Assembly: GCA_035541935.1 (NCBI GenBank)
Contig: DATKMJ010000033.1
Span: 1-64,000 of the forward strand
DNA from: Candidatus Binatia bacterium
Lineage (GTDB): Bacteria > Vulcanimicrobiota > Vulcanimicrobiia > Vulcanimicrobiales > Vulcanimicrobiaceae
Length of the DNA stretch: 64,000 bases
Direction: 5' to 3'
The notes below the pieces were generated by a model. It searched no databases. It was not told the origin of the DNA and saw nothing but the letters and a program-made list of their open reading frames with translations. Below are positions 42,561 to 49,525 of this stretch, piece after piece. Every line of letters starts with the position of its first letter. The first letter of the stretch is position 1. Both the position numbers and the translations under genes were made by a program.

Positions 42561-43462
42561 CAATCGCGCTTCGCAGACCAACGGAGCTTTTCCCGTACCA
42601 CACTCCGCACGGACTCCGGCGCGAGCCAGAGCGTCGAGGGTTCGCCGCGGAACCAGGCGCGCTGCCGGCGCGCGTAGCGCCGCGTTGCCCGGTCGAGCGA
42701 TTCGCGCAGCTCGTCTCTCGTGCTCCAACCGCGGAGATAGCCGAGCGCTTGCGGATATCCGACCGCGCTCGCCGCAACCGCTTCCTCACCGATTCGCTCG
42801 GCCTCCTCGATCAAACCCGTCTCGAGCATCCGTCGGGTGCGCAGCGCGATGCGCCGGTCGATCTCGCTCCACGGCACGTCGAGAAAGACGAGGGCATAGC
42901 CGATGCCGTCGCCGGCGATCGACCGAGGCCGTTCCGGCGACGCCCCCGGCGAGGCCAACGCGATCTCGAGCGCGCGCAGGACGCGGTAGGTGTCGGTCGC
43001 GGCGACCGCGCGCGCTCGCACCGGATCGCGCCGCTCGAGCCAGGCGTGGAGAAACTCAGACGGATGAAGCGATGCCTCGAGCGCGAGGCGATTGCGGAGC
43101 GCTTCGTCGTACTGCGGCGCCAGCGCCACGCCGCCGGTGAGCGCGCGGATATAGAAACCGGTGCCCCCCGCAACGACGACGCGCTTGCCGCGCGCGCGGA
43201 TCCCGCGAATCGTCTCCAGCGCGTCGTTCGCAAAACGGGCCGCCGAGTATCGCTCGCGCGGATCGAGAAAGCCGACCAAGTGATGCGGCGCTTCGGCCAG
43301 CTGCGCCGGCGAAGGCGCGGCCGTGCCGACCGGCATGCCTCGGTAGATCTGGCGGGAGTCGGCTCCGACGATCTCGGCATCGAACTCGCGCGCCAGCTCG
43401 ATCGCGAGTTCGGTCTTCCCGCTCGCCGTCGCGCCGGCGATGATGAGGACGTCGTCAGACAC
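42560..43462 (-). CDS. miaA: tRNA dimethylallyltransferase
   Basis: A 300-residue MiaA: IIAGATASGKTELAIELARE (P-loop), IVGADSRQIYRGMPVGTA with the catalytic Asp-Ser, APHHLVGFLDP, VVVAGGTGFYIRALT and RYARRQRAWFRGEPSTLWL near the C-terminus. It adds a dimethylallyl group to A37 of tRNAs reading UNN codons, the first step before MiaB thiomethylation. The start is GTG at 43462 and overlaps the mutL stop by 3 bases of its coding sequence (8 bases in total). MiaB is encoded 7 kb away on the same strand. Confidence 0.96.
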   Translation of the reverse strand: MSDDVLIIAGATASGKTELAIELAREFDAEIVGADSRQIYRGMPVGTAAPSPAQLAEAPHHLVGFLDPRERYSAARFANDALETIRGIRARGKRVVVAGGTGFYIRALTGGVALAPQYDEALRNRLALEASLHPSEFLHAWLERRDPVRARAVAATDTYRVLRALEIALASPGASPERPRSIAGDGIGYALVFLDVPWSEIDRRIALRTRRMLETGLIEEAERIGEEAVAASAVGYPQALGYLRGWSTRDELRESLDRATRRYARRQRAWFRGEPSTLWLAPESVRSVVREKLRWSAKRD

Positions 43463-45134
43463 GCTTGAACATGCGCGCGATCTCGGTCGAGCCGAGGCGA
43501 ACCATCGTCGGGCGGCCGTGCGGGCAGTGCATCGGGTTCTCGCAGTGCTGCAGTCGCTCGACGAGCGCCGTCATCTCCGCAAGATCGAGGCGTTCGCCCG
43601 CGACCGCGACGCTGTGGCAGGCCAACGATGCCCAGACCCGCTCGCGGACGTCGCGTTGCTTCGGCTCGTCGCTGAGGTCGTCGAGAAAGCCCGCGAGATC
43701 GAACGCCCGCGCGCCGTAGCCGGCCGGCGTCGCCACGACGCGATACGTGCGTTCTCCGAACGGCTCGATCTCCAACCCGGCTTCGCGCAACAGCTCGAGG
43801 GCGCGGTCTAAGGCGGCGCTCTGCACGGGGTCGAGCTCGATGAGCTGCGGAACCAAGAGCGGCTCGTTCGGGGCTCGGTTTCGCGCCGCTGCGCGGATCG
43901 CTTCGTAGGCGATGCGCTCGTGCGCGGCATGCTGATCCACCAGCAAGAGCGCCTCGCCGTCGGCGGCCAAAACAAACGTGCGGTCGAGTTGCGCCAGCAC
44001 GCGCATTCCGCCGGCGGGGCGCACCGCCGCTTCGACGCCCGCCTCGAAGAGCGCGGCCGGCGTCGCCGCTGGATCGGGCGGCGCGAACGAGAACTCTACG
44101 CCGGCGCCGCCGGTCTGTTCGCGAAATCTCGCACCCGCGTGCGCGTTCAGCGTCGCGGCAATCGCGCGCCGCACGACATCGAAGACCTGACCACCGTAGC
44201 GCAGACGAACCTCGCTCTTCGTCGGGTGGACGTTCGGGTCCACGTGATCGGGCGGAAGATCGATGAAGACGACCCCGTACGGATGGCGGCCGGTCATCGC
44301 AAACGTCGCATAGCCGCTCGTCCACGCTCCCGCCAAGAGCGCGTTTCGGACGAGTCTGCCGTTCACGAAGAGCAGCTGCATGCGCCGGTCCGGCCTGTCG
44401 GACCCCGGCGCGCTGATATATCCGCGCAACCCTCCTTCGAGCATGCGAGCGGCCGATGCATCGAGCGGTAAGAGCGTCTGCGCGGCACGTCGCCCGAAGA
44501 CCATCGCGAGCCGCTCGCGCTCGTCGTCGCTCGCGGGCATCACCCAGACGTCCTTTCCATCGTGCCGCAACGTGAAGGTGCACCGCGGATATGCGAGCGC
44601 GAAGCTCGCAAGCCACGACGAGATCCGATTGAACTCGGCATTGGGCGAGCGAAGGTACTCGCGGCGCACCGGAAGGTTCTCGAAGAGCGCCGCGGCGCGA
44701 ACCGAGGTACCGACCGGAGCCGGCGAGGGTTCGACGGCCTCGACCTCTTCAGCGTGAGCGCGAAGCCGCGCTCCCACGGCACACTCGGCCTGTCTCGATA
44801 AGATCTCGGTCTGCGAGACGGCGGCGATCGACGCGAGGCCCTCTCCGCGGAAGCCCAGCGTCGCGATGTGCTCGAGCTCGTCTGCGGAGCGCAGCTTGCT
44901 CGTCGCGTGCCGCCGCACCGCAAGCGGGAGGTCGCCGGCCGCGATGCCCTTTCCGTCGTCGACGACTTCGATTGCATCGAGACCGCCGCGCTCGACGCTA
45001 ACCGTGATGCGTGAGGCCCCTGCGTCGACGGCGTTCTCGACGAGCTCCTTCACGATCGAGGCCGGCCTGTCGATGATCTCGCCCGCGGCGATCTGACCGA
45101 TCGTTACCGCGTCGAGTTCCGCAATCGCTGCCAC
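43455..45134 (-). CDS. mutL: DNA mismatch repair protein MutL (endonuclease type)
   Basis: A 559-residue MutL. The GHKL ATPase has IVKELVENAVDAGASRI, IEVVDDGKGIAAGDL, ATLGFRGEGLASIAA and VDPNVHPTKSEVRL. The C-terminal half has DQHAAHERIAYEA, the DQHA(X)2E(X)4E endonuclease motif, plus ACHSVAVAGE and MHCPHGRPT, the zinc-site motifs. It therefore nicks DNA itself, in keeping with the absence of MutH and Dam. The start is the GTG at 45134, where the conserved VAAIAELDAVTIGQIAAGEI begins; sequence upstream runs into the divergent riboswitch promoter. Confidence 0.95.
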   Translation of the reverse strand: MAAIAELDAVTIGQIAAGEIIDRPASIVKELVENAVDAGASRITVSVERGGLDAIEVVDDGKGIAAGDLPLAVRRHATSKLRSADELEHIATLGFRGEGLASIAAVSQTEILSRQAECAVGARLRAHAEEVEAVEPSPAPVGTSVRAAALFENLPVRREYLRSPNAEFNRISSWLASFALAYPRCTFTLRHDGKDVWVMPASDDERERLAMVFGRRAAQTLLPLDASAARMLEGGLRGYISAPGSDRPDRRMQLLFVNGRLVRNALLAGAWTSGYATFAMTGRHPYGVVFIDLPPDHVDPNVHPTKSEVRLRYGGQVFDVVRRAIAATLNAHAGARFREQTGGAGVEFSFAPPDPAATPAALFEAGVEAAVRPAGGMRVLAQLDRTFVLAADGEALLLVDQHAAHERIAYEAIRAAARNRAPNEPLLVPQLIELDPVQSAALDRALELLREAGLEIEPFGERTYRVVATPAGYGARAFDLAGFLDDLSDEPKQRDVRERVWASLACHSVAVAGERLDLAEMTALVERLQHCENPMHCPHGRPTMVRLGSTEIARMFKRV

Positions 45135-45191
45135 GCCAGCCCGTTCGCGTTTCGCGCGTTCGCGTCCCCGCAGAGCGAGCGGCACTCGGGG

Positions 45192-45219
45192 TTGACAAGC
45201 GCCGATGCGGGTGTATCCT
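45192..45219 (+). promoter_or_regulatory. sigma70-type promoter of the M-box/NRAMP unit
   Basis: TTGACA at 45192-45197, 16-base spacer, TATCCT at 45214-45219. The -35 is a perfect consensus and the -10 matches four of six. Transcription should begin near 45226, just before the riboswitch. Confidence 0.7.
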
Positions 45220-45225
45220 ATTCGA

Positions 45226-45390
45226 GGATTCCTCGTTAGGTGAGGCGTCTGCACGAAGAGATGCCGCTGCCCGGAAAGGTCGAGAGACCCCAACGGGTGA
45301 CCAGATCCCGCCGAATCAAGGCGGAATCTAATGCGGCTGGTCCTGAGCAAGGCCGAAGGGCTTACGGCGTGCAGTGCTAAAGCTCGACAG
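45226..45390 (+). ncRNA. M-box (ykoK leader) magnesium riboswitch
   Basis: The sequence has the conserved M-box blocks in order: CTCGTTAGGTGAGGCGTCTG, GCCGCTGCCCGGAAAGGTCG with AGAGACCCCAACGGGTGACC, then AATCTAATGCGGCTGG and GTGCAGTGCTAAAGCTC. These are the core elements of the ykoK/M-box aptamer, which folds compactly on Mg2+ binding and turns off downstream transport genes. It lies between a consensus promoter and an intrinsic terminator, followed by two small ORFs and an NRAMP-type gene, matching the known link of M-boxes with Mg2+ transporters. Confidence 0.9.
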
Positions 45391-45427
45391 TGAGGAGCCA
45401 GCGCGGTCCGCCGCGCCGGAGTTTCTC

Positions 45428-45470
45428 AAACCGTCGAACTGCGAGGAGCCGCGACGGTTTTTCTTTTTTT
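45428..45470 (+). terminator. intrinsic terminator of the M-box switch
   Basis: Stem arms AAACCGTCG (45428-45436) and CGACGGTTT (45452-45460) are perfect complements, followed by a run of T interrupted by one C (to 45470). A strong separate hairpin GCGCGG-TCCG-CCGCGC at 45401-45416 lies between aptamer and terminator. The terminator is the likely expression platform that stops transcription when Mg2+ is abundant. Confidence 0.85.
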
Positions 45471-45491
45471 GAAAGGGGGTGATGCCAAGCC

Positions 45492-45590
45492 ATGGACGAC
45501 GTTCCCAATAGCATCAAACGACGGCTCGAAAAAGAGCCGCTATTTTCGGCTGCGTTCGTTCGGTGGGCGCGGCCAACCGTAAACCAATAG
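45492..45590 (+). CDS. 32-residue leader ORF after the M-box terminator
   Basis: A short ORF from an ATG at 45492 with an AAAGGGGG ribosome-binding site at 45472-45479, coding 32 residues (start MDDVPNSIKRRLEKE, end RPTVNQ). The coding region contains a hairpin, GGCTC-GAAAAA-GAGCC. It lies between the terminator and the second small ORF; its TAG lies inside the latter's ribosome-binding region. No homologue is known to me. Translation could couple to, or sense conditions for, the downstream transporter genes. Confidence 0.4.
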   Translation: MDDVPNSIKRRLEKEPLFSAAFVRWARPTVNQ

Positions 45591-45601
45591 GAGTAACCAC
45601 C

Positions 45602-45742
45602 ATGAAAAGAGTCTTCAAGCTTCTGCTCGAGTACTTCCGCGACCGGCTCGGGCAAGACGATACCTTCCACGACGATACGCTTCGAGCGAATCAGTCCGAT
45701 CGCGGCCCAACTTTCAGCTTCTGGCGAGCTCTCGTAAGCTAG
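45602..45742 (+). CDS. 46-residue small ORF preceding the NRAMP gene
   Basis: An ATG at 45602 follows AGGAG at 45589-45593, giving a 46-residue product that begins MKRVFKLLLEYFRDRLGQDD and ends SFWRALVS. The N-terminus is amphipathic and basic-hydrophobic; the centre is acidic (DDTFHDD). Its TAG is only 1 base before the GTG of the NRAMP gene, so the two are almost certainly translationally coupled. It could be a small partner of the transporter or a leader peptide. No family is recognised. Confidence 0.6.
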   Translation: MKRVFKLLLEYFRDRLGQDDTFHDDTLRANQSDRGPTFSFWRALVS

Positions 45743-45743
45743 C

Positions 45744-47051
45744 GTGACGGCGACGCACGTGGCACGCCCCAGCATCTGGCGATCGATCGTGATGTTTCTC
45801 TCGATCGTCGGGCCGGGCATCATCACGGCCAACGCCGACAACGACGTCGGCGGCATCCTCACGTACTCGCAGGCGGGCGCGCAGTTCGGCTATTCCATCC
45901 TCTGCCTGCTGATTCCGATCGCCGTCGTGCTGATCGTAGTGCAGGAGATGTGCGCCCGAATGGGAGCGATCACCGGCAAGGGTCTAGCCGATTTGATACG
46001 CGAGAACTTTAACATTCGCGTGACTTTTTGGGTGCTCTTCTTGTTCGTGCTCGGCGATATCGGAAACACGACCACCGAGTTCGCCGGCGTCGCTTCCTCG
46101 GCGCCCATCTTCGCGACCTATCTCCCTTCGATCAATGCCGAGGCGTTCAAGATCGCCCTCGTGCTCGGCGCCGCGGTCTTCGTCTTTTCGATCGTGACGC
46201 GCGGCACCTATAAGGTCCTCGAGCGTATCTTCTTTGCGTTTTGTTTCGTCTACGTGGCCTACGCGGTCAGCGCCTTCGTCGTCCACCCCGATTGGCACCA
46301 GGTCCTTCGCAGCACGTTCGTTCCGCATTTCACGCCCTCGCGCGCGTTGACGCTGATGATCATCGCGGTCATCGGCACGACGATCTCTCCGTGGATGCAG
46401 TTCTACGTCCAGGCGGCCGTCGTGGATAAAGGCGTTCGCGAAAAGGATTATAAGTTCTCTCGAATCGACGTTGCCGTCGGCGCCGTCTGGGCCGACGTCA
46501 TTGCGTACTTCATCATCGTCGCTTGCGCGGCAACCATCTACGTCAGCAACTTGCACGCGACGAACCCGATCGTCGTACGCGACGCCGGCGACGTCGCGGT
46601 GGCGCTGACGCCGATCGCGGGGAAGTTCGCCTCGCTGCTCTTTGCGCTCGGCCTGCTCAATGCCGCCGTCTTCACGGCGACGATTCTCCCGCTCTCGACG
46701 GCCTACTACGTCTGCGAGGCGTTCGGATTCGAACGCGGCGTGGACCACAGCTTCGGTGAGGCGAAGATCTTCTACGGCTTCTACCTGGCCTTGATCGTGA
46801 TCGGCGCCGGGATCGTCATCATTCCGCACGCGCCGCTCTTGGCGATCATCTTCTACTCGCAGGTCGCAAACGGCGTCCTGCTTCCGATCGTCTTGGTGCT
46901 CATGCTCTTGCTCGTCAATAACCGCAAGCTCATGGGCCGCTACGTTAACGGGCCCGTAACGAACGTCATCGCATGGGCGACGATCGTTGTCGTCGCCGTG
47001 CTCACGGTCGTCTCGACCGCGCAGATCGTCTTCCCCTCGCTCGGGAGTTAG
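45744..47051 (+). CDS. NRAMP-related transporter, probable Mg2+ importer (NMT-like)
   Basis: A 435-residue NRAMP/SLC11-fold protein with about 11 helices. TM1 reads VGPGIITANADNDVGGILTY: the usual DPGN is DVGG, keeping only the Asp (residue 34). TM6 reads GTTISPWMQFYVQ where metal transporters have MPH(N), so the metal-binding Met is replaced by Ser. Loss of the Met and Asn is the mark of NRAMP-related Mg2+ transporters rather than Mn2+/Fe2+ importers, and the M-box upstream fits this. The start is GTG at 45744, 1 base after the small ORF. It is convergent with mutS (4-base overlap). Confidence 0.85.
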   Translation: MTATHVARPSIWRSIVMFLSIVGPGIITANADNDVGGILTYSQAGAQFGYSILCLLIPIAVVLIVVQEMCARMGAITGKGLADLIRENFNIRVTFWVLFLFVLGDIGNTTTEFAGVASSAPIFATYLPSINAEAFKIALVLGAAVFVFSIVTRGTYKVLERIFFAFCFVYVAYAVSAFVVHPDWHQVLRSTFVPHFTPSRALTLMIIAVIGTTISPWMQFYVQAAVVDKGVREKDYKFSRIDVAVGAVWADVIAYFIIVACAATIYVSNLHATNPIVVRDAGDVAVALTPIAGKFASLLFALGLLNAAVFTATILPLSTAYYVCEAFGFERGVDHSFGEAKIFYGFYLALIVIGAGIVIIPHAPLLAIIFYSQVANGVLLPIVLVLMLLLVNNRKLMGRYVNGPVTNVIAWATIVVVAVLTVVSTAQIVFPSLGS

Positions 47052-49525
47052 CCAAGAAACGAGAGTTGGCGCTCGGACGAGCGCTTGGGCAACTTCTTTC
47101 GCAGCGGGATTCTCGCTTCGATGTCCGCGTGGCCGGAGAGCTCGTCGGCAATATCCTTCGCGCGCTCGACGACCGCTTCCGGCAGTCCGGCCATGCGCGC
47201 GACCTCGATGCCGAACGAGCGCGACGAGCTTCCGGGCTGCACCCGATGCGAGAAGACCGGCGAGCCGTCGCGAGCGGTGTTCTCCACTGCGGTGATGTGA
47301 AAGTTTGCGACGAGCTTCCAATGTTCTTTTAGCGCGCAGAGCTCGTGAAAGTGCGTCGCAAAGAGCACGAGCGGCGCTTGCTCTTCGAGACCGAGCAAGA
47401 ACTCGCATATTGCCTGCGCGATCGCCAGCCCGTCGAGCGTGCCGGTGCCGCGTCCGACTTCGTCTATCAGCAAGAGCGAACGCTGCGTGCTGCGGCGCAG
47501 GATATTCGCCGCCTCGGCCATCTCCATATAGAAGGTGGATTCTCCCGATGCAAGATCGTCGCCGGCGCCGATGCGCGTGAAGATGCGGTCAATCACGCCG
47601 AGTTCCATCCGCTTCGCGGGAACGTACGAGCCGATCTGCGCCATGATCGCCAGGAGCCCGGCCTGCCGGAGGTAGGTGGACTTTCCGCCCATGTTCGGCC
47701 CCGTCAACAGCACGAACCGCTGCTCGCCGGCGTGGAGTTCGAGGTCGTTCGGCACGAACTTCGCGTGGAGAATCGCTTCCATGACCGGATGTCGGCCGTC
47801 TTCGATCGAGACGATGCTCTCCTCGACGAAGGACGGGCGAACGTAGCCGCGCTCCGCCGCGCACTGCGCGAGCGCCGCGAGCGCGTCGAGCTCGGCGATC
47901 GCAGTGGCCGCCTGCGATAGGTCGTCGGCCTTCGCCGCGATTCGCTCGAGGAGCGCGTCGAAGAGATCGCGCTCGAGCCGCTCCTGCCGCGTCTGCGCGG
48001 TCGCGATCGCGATCTCGAGCTCTTTTAACTCGGGGGTAACGTATCGCTCGCCGGTGCTCAACGTTTGCTTGCGAAGATACTCCGGGGGCACCGCGCCGGT
48101 GTAGCTCTTGCCGATCTCGATCGCATACCCCAACGGGCTTGCATACTTTACTTTGAGATTTTTGATGCCGGTCCGGTCGCGCTCGCGCCGCTCCAACTCG
48201 GAGATCTGCGACCGCGCGTCGGTCCGCAGGAGAATGCACTCGGCGAGATCCGGATCGGCCTCGGGCCGGATCGCTCCGCCGTCGACGATCTGCGCGGGCG
48301 GGTCGTCGACGAGCGTCGCTTGCAGATCGGCGAGCATCTCGTCGAAATCGCCGATGCGCTCGACGATTGCCCGGAGCGACGCGGGCGCGGCCTGCCGCAG
48401 CGGCCGCAAGATCTCGAGCGTCCGCCGAAGCGAAGCCAGGTCGCGCGGCGTCGCGCGGCGATAGCGAGCCTTCTGCGCGATCCGCTCGAGATCGAACGCG
48501 CCTTTGAGGATCTCGCGAATCGTTTCGCGGCGGGCGTGCTCGGCGATGAGCGCGGCGACGGCCTCCTGGCGGGCCGCGATCGCGTCGCGATCGACGAGCG
48601 GTGCGACGATCCAGCGCGCCAGCATGCGGGATCCCATCGATGTGACGCAGAGGTCGAGCGTTGCAAGCAGCGTCGCGCGGGGATTCGCCCCCTGCGCGCG
48701 CGTCAACTCGAGGTTCTTCCGCGTGGCGGGATCGAGATCGACGAACTGCCGGCGGCGATAGAATTGCGGCTCGGCCGCGTCGCTCGCGCCGTTGGTGACG
48801 CCGGTTCGGCGCACGAACGCGCCGAGAGCCTCGAGCGCACGGTGCATCGCAAGCGATTCGTCGAGCGAGAAGCCGTCGATGCCCGCGCGGCTGCGCGCGT
48901 CGACGACGCCGAGGCCGGGCGTTGCGAGACGCGCACCGAGGCCTTCAACCGCCGTCGCCAGCGTCGCGCGCACCTCGGCGGGAACGTCGGCGACGATCTC
49001 CGAGGGCCCGATCCGCGCCAGCTCCGCAAGCAGCTCGTCGTAGGCATCGTCGCCGCCGATCGCCGTCGCGGCGGCGTAACTCGTCGAGACGTCCGCGTAC
49101 GCCAGCGCGATCGTATCGTCCACCATCGCGACCGCGGCGAGATAGTTGTTCTGTTTGCTTTCGAGCAGCTGGTCTTCGATCAACGTCCCGGGCGTGACGA
49201 GCCGGACGACCTCGCGCCGAACGAGGCGATTCGGCTGCGGGATCTCCAACTGCTCGGCGAGGGCCACGATGAACCGTTGCTGCACGAGCTTCGCGAGGTA
49301 TCCGGAGAGCGCGTGGTGCGGAACGCCCGCCATCGCAACGCGCTTGCCCGCGCCGGCCTCCTTGCTCGTCAGCGCGATCTGCAAGGCGCGGGCCACAATC
49401 TCCGCGTCCTCGCCGTAGGCTTCGTAGAAATCGCCGACCCGCGAGAGCAGAACCGCTTCGGGGTGCTTCGCCTTCATCCCGAAGTACTGCTCGAGCATCG
49501 GCGAGAACTTGGCGCCGGCCGCCAT
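47048..49525 (-). CDS. mutS: DNA mismatch repair protein MutS
   Basis: An 825-residue MutS. The mismatch-binding motif FYE is in RVGDFYEAYGEDAEIV; the ATPase domain has LLTGPNMGGKSTYLRQAGLL (Walker A), STFYMEMAEAANIL (Q/signature region), LLIDEVGRGTGTLDGLAIAQ (Walker B and D loop) and LFATHFHEL. The D loop reads GTGTLDG rather than the usual GTSTYDG. It recognises mismatches and recruits MutL. mutS, mutL and miaA are on the same strand, with the M-box/NRAMP unit inserted between mutS and mutL on the other strand. Confidence 0.97.
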   Translation of the reverse strand: MAAGAKFSPMLEQYFGMKAKHPEAVLLSRVGDFYEAYGEDAEIVARALQIALTSKEAGAGKRVAMAGVPHHALSGYLAKLVQQRFIVALAEQLEIPQPNRLVRREVVRLVTPGTLIEDQLLESKQNNYLAAVAMVDDTIALAYADVSTSYAAATAIGGDDAYDELLAELARIGPSEIVADVPAEVRATLATAVEGLGARLATPGLGVVDARSRAGIDGFSLDESLAMHRALEALGAFVRRTGVTNGASDAAEPQFYRRRQFVDLDPATRKNLELTRAQGANPRATLLATLDLCVTSMGSRMLARWIVAPLVDRDAIAARQEAVAALIAEHARRETIREILKGAFDLERIAQKARYRRATPRDLASLRRTLEILRPLRQAAPASLRAIVERIGDFDEMLADLQATLVDDPPAQIVDGGAIRPEADPDLAECILLRTDARSQISELERRERDRTGIKNLKVKYASPLGYAIEIGKSYTGAVPPEYLRKQTLSTGERYVTPELKELEIAIATAQTRQERLERDLFDALLERIAAKADDLSQAATAIAELDALAALAQCAAERGYVRPSFVEESIVSIEDGRHPVMEAILHAKFVPNDLELHAGEQRFVLLTGPNMGGKSTYLRQAGLLAIMAQIGSYVPAKRMELGVIDRIFTRIGAGDDLASGESTFYMEMAEAANILRRSTQRSLLLIDEVGRGTGTLDGLAIAQAICEFLLGLEEQAPLVLFATHFHELCALKEHWKLVANFHITAVENTARDGSPVFSHRVQPGSSSRSFGIEVARMAGLPEAVVERAKDIADELSGHADIEARIPLRKKLPKRSSERQLSFLG

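Follow-up and report, generated by a model that had tools for sequence, protein, structure and literature searches.

Most NRAMP-related Mg2+ transporter genes (nrmT) found under the control of an M-box riboswitch are from Clostridia and Deltaproteobacteria; an Acidobacterium NrmT gene that was tested has no M-box (Shin et al., 2014, PMC4072509). EleNRMT has been experimentally proven to carry Mg2+, and carries Mn2+ too; the ion-site signature of this transporter group is DxxG-TxxA/T (PMC8806188). Small ORFs are also part of known Mg2+-responsive leaders. The uORF2 peptide of Mycobacterium tuberculosis (Rv1805A) is stated to be specific to mycobacteria (PMC12810186). In enterobacteria, ribosomes translating the EPDP motif of MgtL drop off at low Mg2+, which induces mgtA (PMC11282234), and Asp2 and Glu5 of MgtQ are needed for translation of mgtB (PMC8092293).

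Here, we analyzed a stretch of 64,000 nucleotides (the window; contig DATKMJ010000033.1, positions 1 to 64,000, assembly GCA_035541935.1) from a soil bacterium belonging to Eremiobacterota/Vulcanimicrobiota. The window contains a promoter, an M-box, a terminator, two small ORFs (uORF1 and uORF2), and an NRAMP-type gene, in this order and with the overlaps that can be read directly from Table 1. The parts of the switch, the leader ORFs, the NRAMP gene, and its ion-site motifs are all far above chance. Our main reading, to which we assign a probability of about three in four, is that these parts make up a Mg2+-repressed import unit, in which the M-box and terminator precede a coupled chain of uORF1, uORF2, and an NRMT importer. 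At high Mg2+, the M-box would fold, its P1 helix holding a sequence that otherwise pairs with a terminator arm, and transcription would stop at the terminator. At low Mg2+, polymerase would read through to yield an mRNA in which uORF1, uORF2, and the NRMT-type importer are tightly coupled. Ribosomes would load at the uORF1 site, which is very strong, terminate uORF1 on the uORF2 Shine-Dalgarno sequence itself, and terminate uORF2 a single nucleotide ahead of the importer start; importer synthesis would thereby follow leader translation. We infer that the unit senses and transports Mg2+, that translation along the chain is coupled, and that the peptides are functional.

Table 1. Features of the M-box/importer unit (coordinates are those of the window)
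Feature	Position	Strand	Evidence
Sigma-70-type promoter, TTGACA (-35, at 45192), 16-nt spacer, TATCCT (-10)	45192..45219	+	10/12 matches
M-box (ykoK leader) Mg2+ riboswitch aptamer	45225..45401	+	RF00380 covariance model
Intrinsic terminator, 9-bp stem 45428-45436/45452-45460 with arms AAACCGTCG/CGACGGTTT (45428-45460), followed by TTCTTTTTTT; T tract 45461-45470	45428..45470	+	Stem and compensatory change in relatives
uORF1 Shine-Dalgarno sequence, near-perfect, AAAGGGGGTGAT	45472..45483	+	Complementarity to 16S 3' tail
uORF1, 32 codons, MDDVPNSIKRRLEKEPLFSAAFVRWARPTVNQ	45492..45590	+	Open frame, conserved in relatives
Hairpin 1 within uORF1, CGGCTC/GAGCCG	45522..45539	+	
Hairpin 2 within uORF1, 11 bp	45548..45574	+	Retained in many relatives
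uORF2, 46-aa small protein	45602..45742	+	Profile matches, dN/dS
nrmT-like gene, NRAMP-related putative Mg2+ transporter, 435 aa, GTG start	45744..47051	+	Pfam, PDB match, motifs, tree

The riboswitch is a genuine M-box, with putative Mg2+-dependent folding. The RF00380 covariance model matched at full length (model 1-169, all 169 positions) with 125.9 bits against a curated cut-off of 44 (E 7.7e-28), and this is the single M-box of the 2.4-Mb genome. The promoter ends 5 bases upstream of it, and transcription is expected to start near the M-box 5' end. The -35 element is perfect, and four of six positions match in the -10 element; the promoter pattern occurs once, compared with a mean of 0.4 in shuffled sequences. 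In most relatives, the terminator stem reads AAACTGTCG/CGACAGTTT, a compensatory U-A versus C-G difference from the window, and two genomes (G037 and G052) have a U-G intermediate. In the predicted folding of the truncated transcript, the 5' strand of P1 (45229-45241) pairs with the terminator loop (45438-45448), and positions 45384-45388 pair with the 5' arm of the terminator (45433-45437). Such competing pairings, as predicted, are the arrangement expected of a Mg2+-off switch. The preliminary description of this locus, made from the sequence alone, had listed a consensus promoter, a clear M-box, a 9-bp-stem terminator, and leader ORFs. The M-box and terminator were recovered as described, and both leader ORFs proved to be open and, which that description had not recognized, conserved in relatives; the promoter stood with its perfect -35 element and 10 of 12 matches, but “consensus” is slightly generous because of the -10 element.

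The Shine-Dalgarno sequence of uORF1 lies directly 3' of the terminator and complements the 16S 3' end with one G-U pair, the usual 16S 3' tail (GATCACCTCCTT) being present in this genome. When 149 genomes were searched with a pattern of the uORF1 site and start, 33 matches were obtained, compared with 0 in a reversed control. Twenty-nine of them are placed 67-111 nt downstream of an M-box; of the remainder, one is the leader with the broken M-box in genome G038 (see below), one overlaps a weak M-box match, and two appear to be chance hits. Only ATG or GTG starts occur in the 33 leaders, and the N terminus, M/V-D-D-G-P-S, is conserved with synonymous third-base variation: codon 4 is GGN in 29/33 and codon 5 is CCN (Pro) in 21/33, with all four third bases seen. 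The N-terminal codons of uORF1 are thus constrained. Asp occupies codon 2 in 33/33 and codon 3 in 27/33, counts that the search pattern itself partly dictates. Beyond codon 7, conservation is poor, although this variable remainder forms two hairpins in many leaders. Some leaders have only a D-G-G-S or D-G-S start. No match to uORF1 was found in an NCBIfam search. The uORF1 TAG sits inside the uORF2 Shine-Dalgarno sequence, and in many leaders the stop lies inside or near it. Hairpin 2 has 97% of cells paired in 13 hand-picked leaders, among which covariation is modest (11/500 shuffles reach the score); in some leaders, it is lost or shortened. We therefore rejected RNA structure alone as the explanation of the uORF1 block, since it leaves the codon pattern unexplained.

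Most likely, uORF1 is a leader ORF with a regulatory role, in which the acidic codons near the start would set the number of ribosomes that continue. It could also act as a Mg2+ sensor in its own right, besides the M-box and in the manner of MgtL and MgtQ: Asp2-Asp3-(Gly)-Pro would destabilise ribosomes at low Mg2+, and the resulting change of leader hairpins or ribosome traffic would raise the synthesis of uORF2 and importer. The prevalence of early Asp and of Pro at codon 5 and the two hairpins inside uORF1 are consistent with such a role, and both MgtL (Glu2, Asp4; PMC11282234) and MgtQ (Asp2, Glu5; PMC8092293) act by early acidic codons; however, a di-acidic motif alone is insufficient in E. 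coli (PMC11282234), and the leaders with only D-G-G-S or D-G-S also speak against it. We regard a second sensor in uORF1 as possible, if on the unlikely side. The more general proposition, that Eremiobacterota sense Mg2+ at two points of a single mRNA, the M-box deciding on transcription and the acidic-start uORF1 sensing Mg2+ via the ribosome and gating translation of uORF2 and importer, is doubtful. If uORF1 did sense Mg2+ in this way, one mRNA would combine two different RNA-level ways of sensing the same ion.

The second small ORF carries the motif MKr.LaFl...HDDtLRANQ...FSFWRALVS. A profile of 14 peptides run against the 149 genomes matched 28 places at E below 1e-8 (E 3e-22 for the copy in the window's own genome), and 24 of the 28 copies have an M-box 93-386 nt upstream on the same strand. 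Three copies have no upstream M-box (G033:C21, G054:C9:121821, and the first copy in G034); one of these precedes a protein of the 616-aa family described below. The fourth exception is G038, where the M-box is interrupted by a repeat-like insertion and the promoter, terminator, uORF1, uORF2, and importer remain (locus L158), a natural loss of the sensor. Met1 and L-R-A are invariant, and Lys2, His23, Asp25, Asn30, Ser39, and Trp41 are nearly so; the C-terminal end, FSFWRALVS in the genus, is among the most conserved parts. In a sample of the genus, dN/dS was 0.28, and in-frame pN/pS was about 0.5 versus 0.95-1.26 in the two other frames: uORF2 is under purifying selection. Conservation, codon statistics, and off-frame controls rule out that uORF1 and uORF2 are chance ORFs, and both are well supported as coding sequence. 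No Pfam or NCBIfam match to uORF2 was found. A broad distribution of uORF2 was considered and dropped, as 38 NRMT-bearing genomes reached via other loci gave no match in a search run without a positive control; so was a membrane-spanning uORF2, since no segment is hydrophobic enough and the N terminus is at most amphipathic.

We think that uORF2 most likely encodes a 46-aa small protein that functions in the response to Mg2+ starvation. It is unlikely that both ORFs merely load ribosomes after the terminator, shielding the mRNA and supplying the importer with reinitiating ribosomes, the peptides being inert. Such a role would suit the near-perfect Shine-Dalgarno sequence, stops that overlap the next initiation site, and the poor conservation of uORF1 past codon 7, but it sits badly with the amino acid constraint on uORF2 (its dN/dS, invariant L-R-A, and near-invariant His, Asp, Asn, Ser, and Trp) and with the synonymous variation of uORF1 codons 4-5. 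Another role for the conserved C-terminal end would be that of a nascent-chain arrest peptide, in which the residues before the stop would stall the ribosome under certain conditions and expose the next start. Indeed, the uORF2 stop abuts or overlaps the next start in the window and in some distant genera. In several distant genera, the small ORF after uORF1 is another one, with W-I-L-x-x-R or a similar string at its end (pre-stop strings in other genera are YWILHVR, FWILFAR, CWIRYAR, and LYLWVPHLR), and its stop is overlapped by the following start in G121 and G060. Arrest appears improbable to us nevertheless, given that the HDDxLRANQ block and the MK N terminus of uORF2 are conserved as well, that a gap of 20-60 nt is found where a gene for an outer-membrane-type protein comes next, and that copies of uORF2 exist away from M-boxes.

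The product of the importer gene matches Pfam Nramp with 296 bits. Its best match among solved structures is EleNRMT (PDB: 7QIA; 312.6 bits), with DraNramp, a Mn2+ NRAMP, at 79 bits. The aligned ion site consists of D33-V-G-G36 in helix 1 and T212-I-S215-P-W in helix 6, compared with DPGN and V-M-PH in Mn2+/Fe2+ NRAMPs. The DxxG and TxxA/T signature is present with Ser in place of Ala/Thr at the third position, as in most Eremiobacterota members of the importer's group; this Ser counts against our main reading. In a maximum-likelihood tree, the importer falls on the non-classical side together with M-box-linked NRMTs of Eremiobacterota, and a 100/100 branch splits off the classical pair, DraNramp and a second NRAMP of the same genome. 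The structure match, the ion-site signature, and the position in the tree support assignment of the importer to the NRMT/NrmT group of Mg2+ transporters. It is very improbable that the importer is a NRAMP for Mn2+ or another transition metal that sits under the M-box by accident: EleNRMT does carry Mn2+ too (PMC8806188), but the importer has neither the Met and Asn ligands nor the two proton-path histidines found in Mn2+ NRAMPs, a separate classical NRAMP (DPGN/MPH) is encoded on another contig (C65) of this genome, and all aligned M-box-linked NRAMP-like genes carry the non-classical site.

The preliminary description had noted an NRAMP gene without Met and Asn (DVGG and SPW) and had read it as a Mg2+ transporter of the NMT kind, to be placed in a tree with known NMTs, in a lineage where it may not have been described. 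The motifs were borne out by alignment, and every computational test, whether structure match, signature, or side of the tree, agrees with the NMT reading. The tree itself gave a mixed answer: the split from classical NRAMPs is fully supported, but the fork that holds EleNRMT is an open polytomy. As for the lineage, the pairing of M-box and NRMT is of a known kind, because it was published in 2014 for Clostridia and Deltaproteobacteria (PMC4072509), and it is new to this phylum; in open-licence full texts, we found no report of it in Eremiobacterota. Nor did we find, in open-licence full texts, a paper on the two-ORF leader, which is apparently undescribed.

Across the phylum, 96 of the 149 genomes searched have an M-box, and 129 have a protein match at E below 1e-20, a number that includes several NRAMP groups. 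Where M-box and NRMT share a contig, they are separated by mostly 80-110 nt with nothing between, by about 1.4 kb containing a gene for a PRC/MgtE_N/CBS protein, or by 200-500 nt or 0.9-2.3 kb. The last layout is that of the window's genus and some others, and it is here that uORF1 and uORF2 sit; in the longer gaps, uORF2 is followed by the 616-aa protein or, in G048, by an OprB porin (PF04966, 5e-28; L162). Two genomes (G047 and G049) have lost uORF1 and kept uORF2, and in the other genera with 80-110 nt there is no room for either ORF; uORF1 and uORF2 are therefore dispensable for M-box control as such. Because in several relatives the gene after uORF2 encodes an outer-membrane-type protein, coupling would not always be to the importer. 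In our sample from outside the phylum, M-boxes precede the NRMT gene by 1.4-2.1 kb in Peptococcaceae, other Bacillota, and Geobacter relatives, and none was found in the Acidobacteriota sampled, which agrees with the published distribution (PMC4072509).

The 616-aa protein belongs to a family of 585-690 aa with an N-terminal signal-like segment and an aromatic/hydrophobic C-terminal strand as in outer-membrane beta-barrels. It had no match in Pfam, in NCBIfam, or, by sequence search, in PDB. The family recurs in Eremiobacterota M-box units (L008:3145-4986, L150, L151, L155, L159, L160, and others), located either in the gap that separates leader ORFs from importer or downstream of an NRAMP-like gene, and is a candidate outer-membrane Mg2+ channel; the 616-aa protein is absent from the window's genome. 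In G033 (L316/L249), the unit consists of M-box, uORF1, uORF2, an NRAMP-like gene of a second kind, and genes named OprB-like porin and MgtC-like by sequence resemblance (the OprB of G048 was named by its Pfam match). Porin and MgtC-like genes in M-box units suggest a Mg2+-starvation operon serving both membranes. The second NRAMP-like group, of ~550 aa, has DNDAGA and TTVAPW ion-site motifs and is found in M-box units of other genera (L249, L243, L245, L248, L307, L311, and L315); it is possibly another type of Mg2+ transporter. At L307 (G087:C67), a second uORF1-like ORF (MDDGPSR..., positions 195-293 of the locus), with its own strong Shine-Dalgarno sequence and no M-box of its own, lies inside the operon, after the NRMT and before the 550-aa NRAMP-like gene.

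In the window, the unit is flanked by mutL-like (43455-45170) and mutS-like (47048-49525) genes, both on the minus strand, the end of the latter overlapping the importer stop. In G053, G042, and G045, the unit likewise adjoins a mutL-like gene. An MgtE N-domain gene, which is a common but not obligatory neighbor, is absent from the window's unit; one MgtE_N gene of this genome is on another contig.

Two concrete small ORFs are gained here for the study of Mg2+ homeostasis, and the outer-membrane-type proteins tied to the Mg2+ switch in relatives bear on how Mg2+ may pass the outer membrane. Among known systems, the M-box NrmT genes of Clostridium acetobutylicum (Ca_c0685 and Ca_c3329; PMC4072509) share with the window the M-box, a transcription-termination platform, and an NRAMP-related Mg2+ transporter, in a different phylum from that of the window (Eremiobacterota/Vulcanimicrobiota). 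Most NrmT genes described so far have an MgtE N-domain gene next to them (PMC4072509), whereas the unit in the window has two conserved small ORFs instead. With EleNRMT of Eggerthella lenta (PDB: 7QIA; PMC8806188), the importer has 41% identity and shares a site of the DxxG-TxxA/T type, the helix 3 Glu, and Trp replacing the first helix-6 His; it differs in having Ser for Ala at the third ion-site position and Val for the EleNRMT Asn at the position of the second helix-6 His.

MgtL and MgtQ of enterobacteria (PMC11282234, PMC8092293) are, like uORF1, short ORFs with very early acidic codons before a Mg2+ transporter gene. Their peptides are unrelated to uORF1, mgtL has a Rho-dependent terminator and mgtQ works by RBS occlusion, and neither lies downstream of an M-box; the Asp-Asp start of uORF1 is reminiscent of them, a resemblance only. 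In architecture, the M. tuberculosis pe20 leader (PMC12810186) comes closest: here, too, an M-box, a poorly conserved uORF1, and a conserved small uORF2 (Rv1805A) precede Mg2+ uptake genes, a likeness of layout. The mycobacterial leader uses a translational platform and Rho, whereas the window has an intrinsic terminator. Conserved small ORFs behind an M-box are thus no mycobacterial oddity: an unrelated phylum has them too, there combined with an intrinsic terminator in place of the translational platform.
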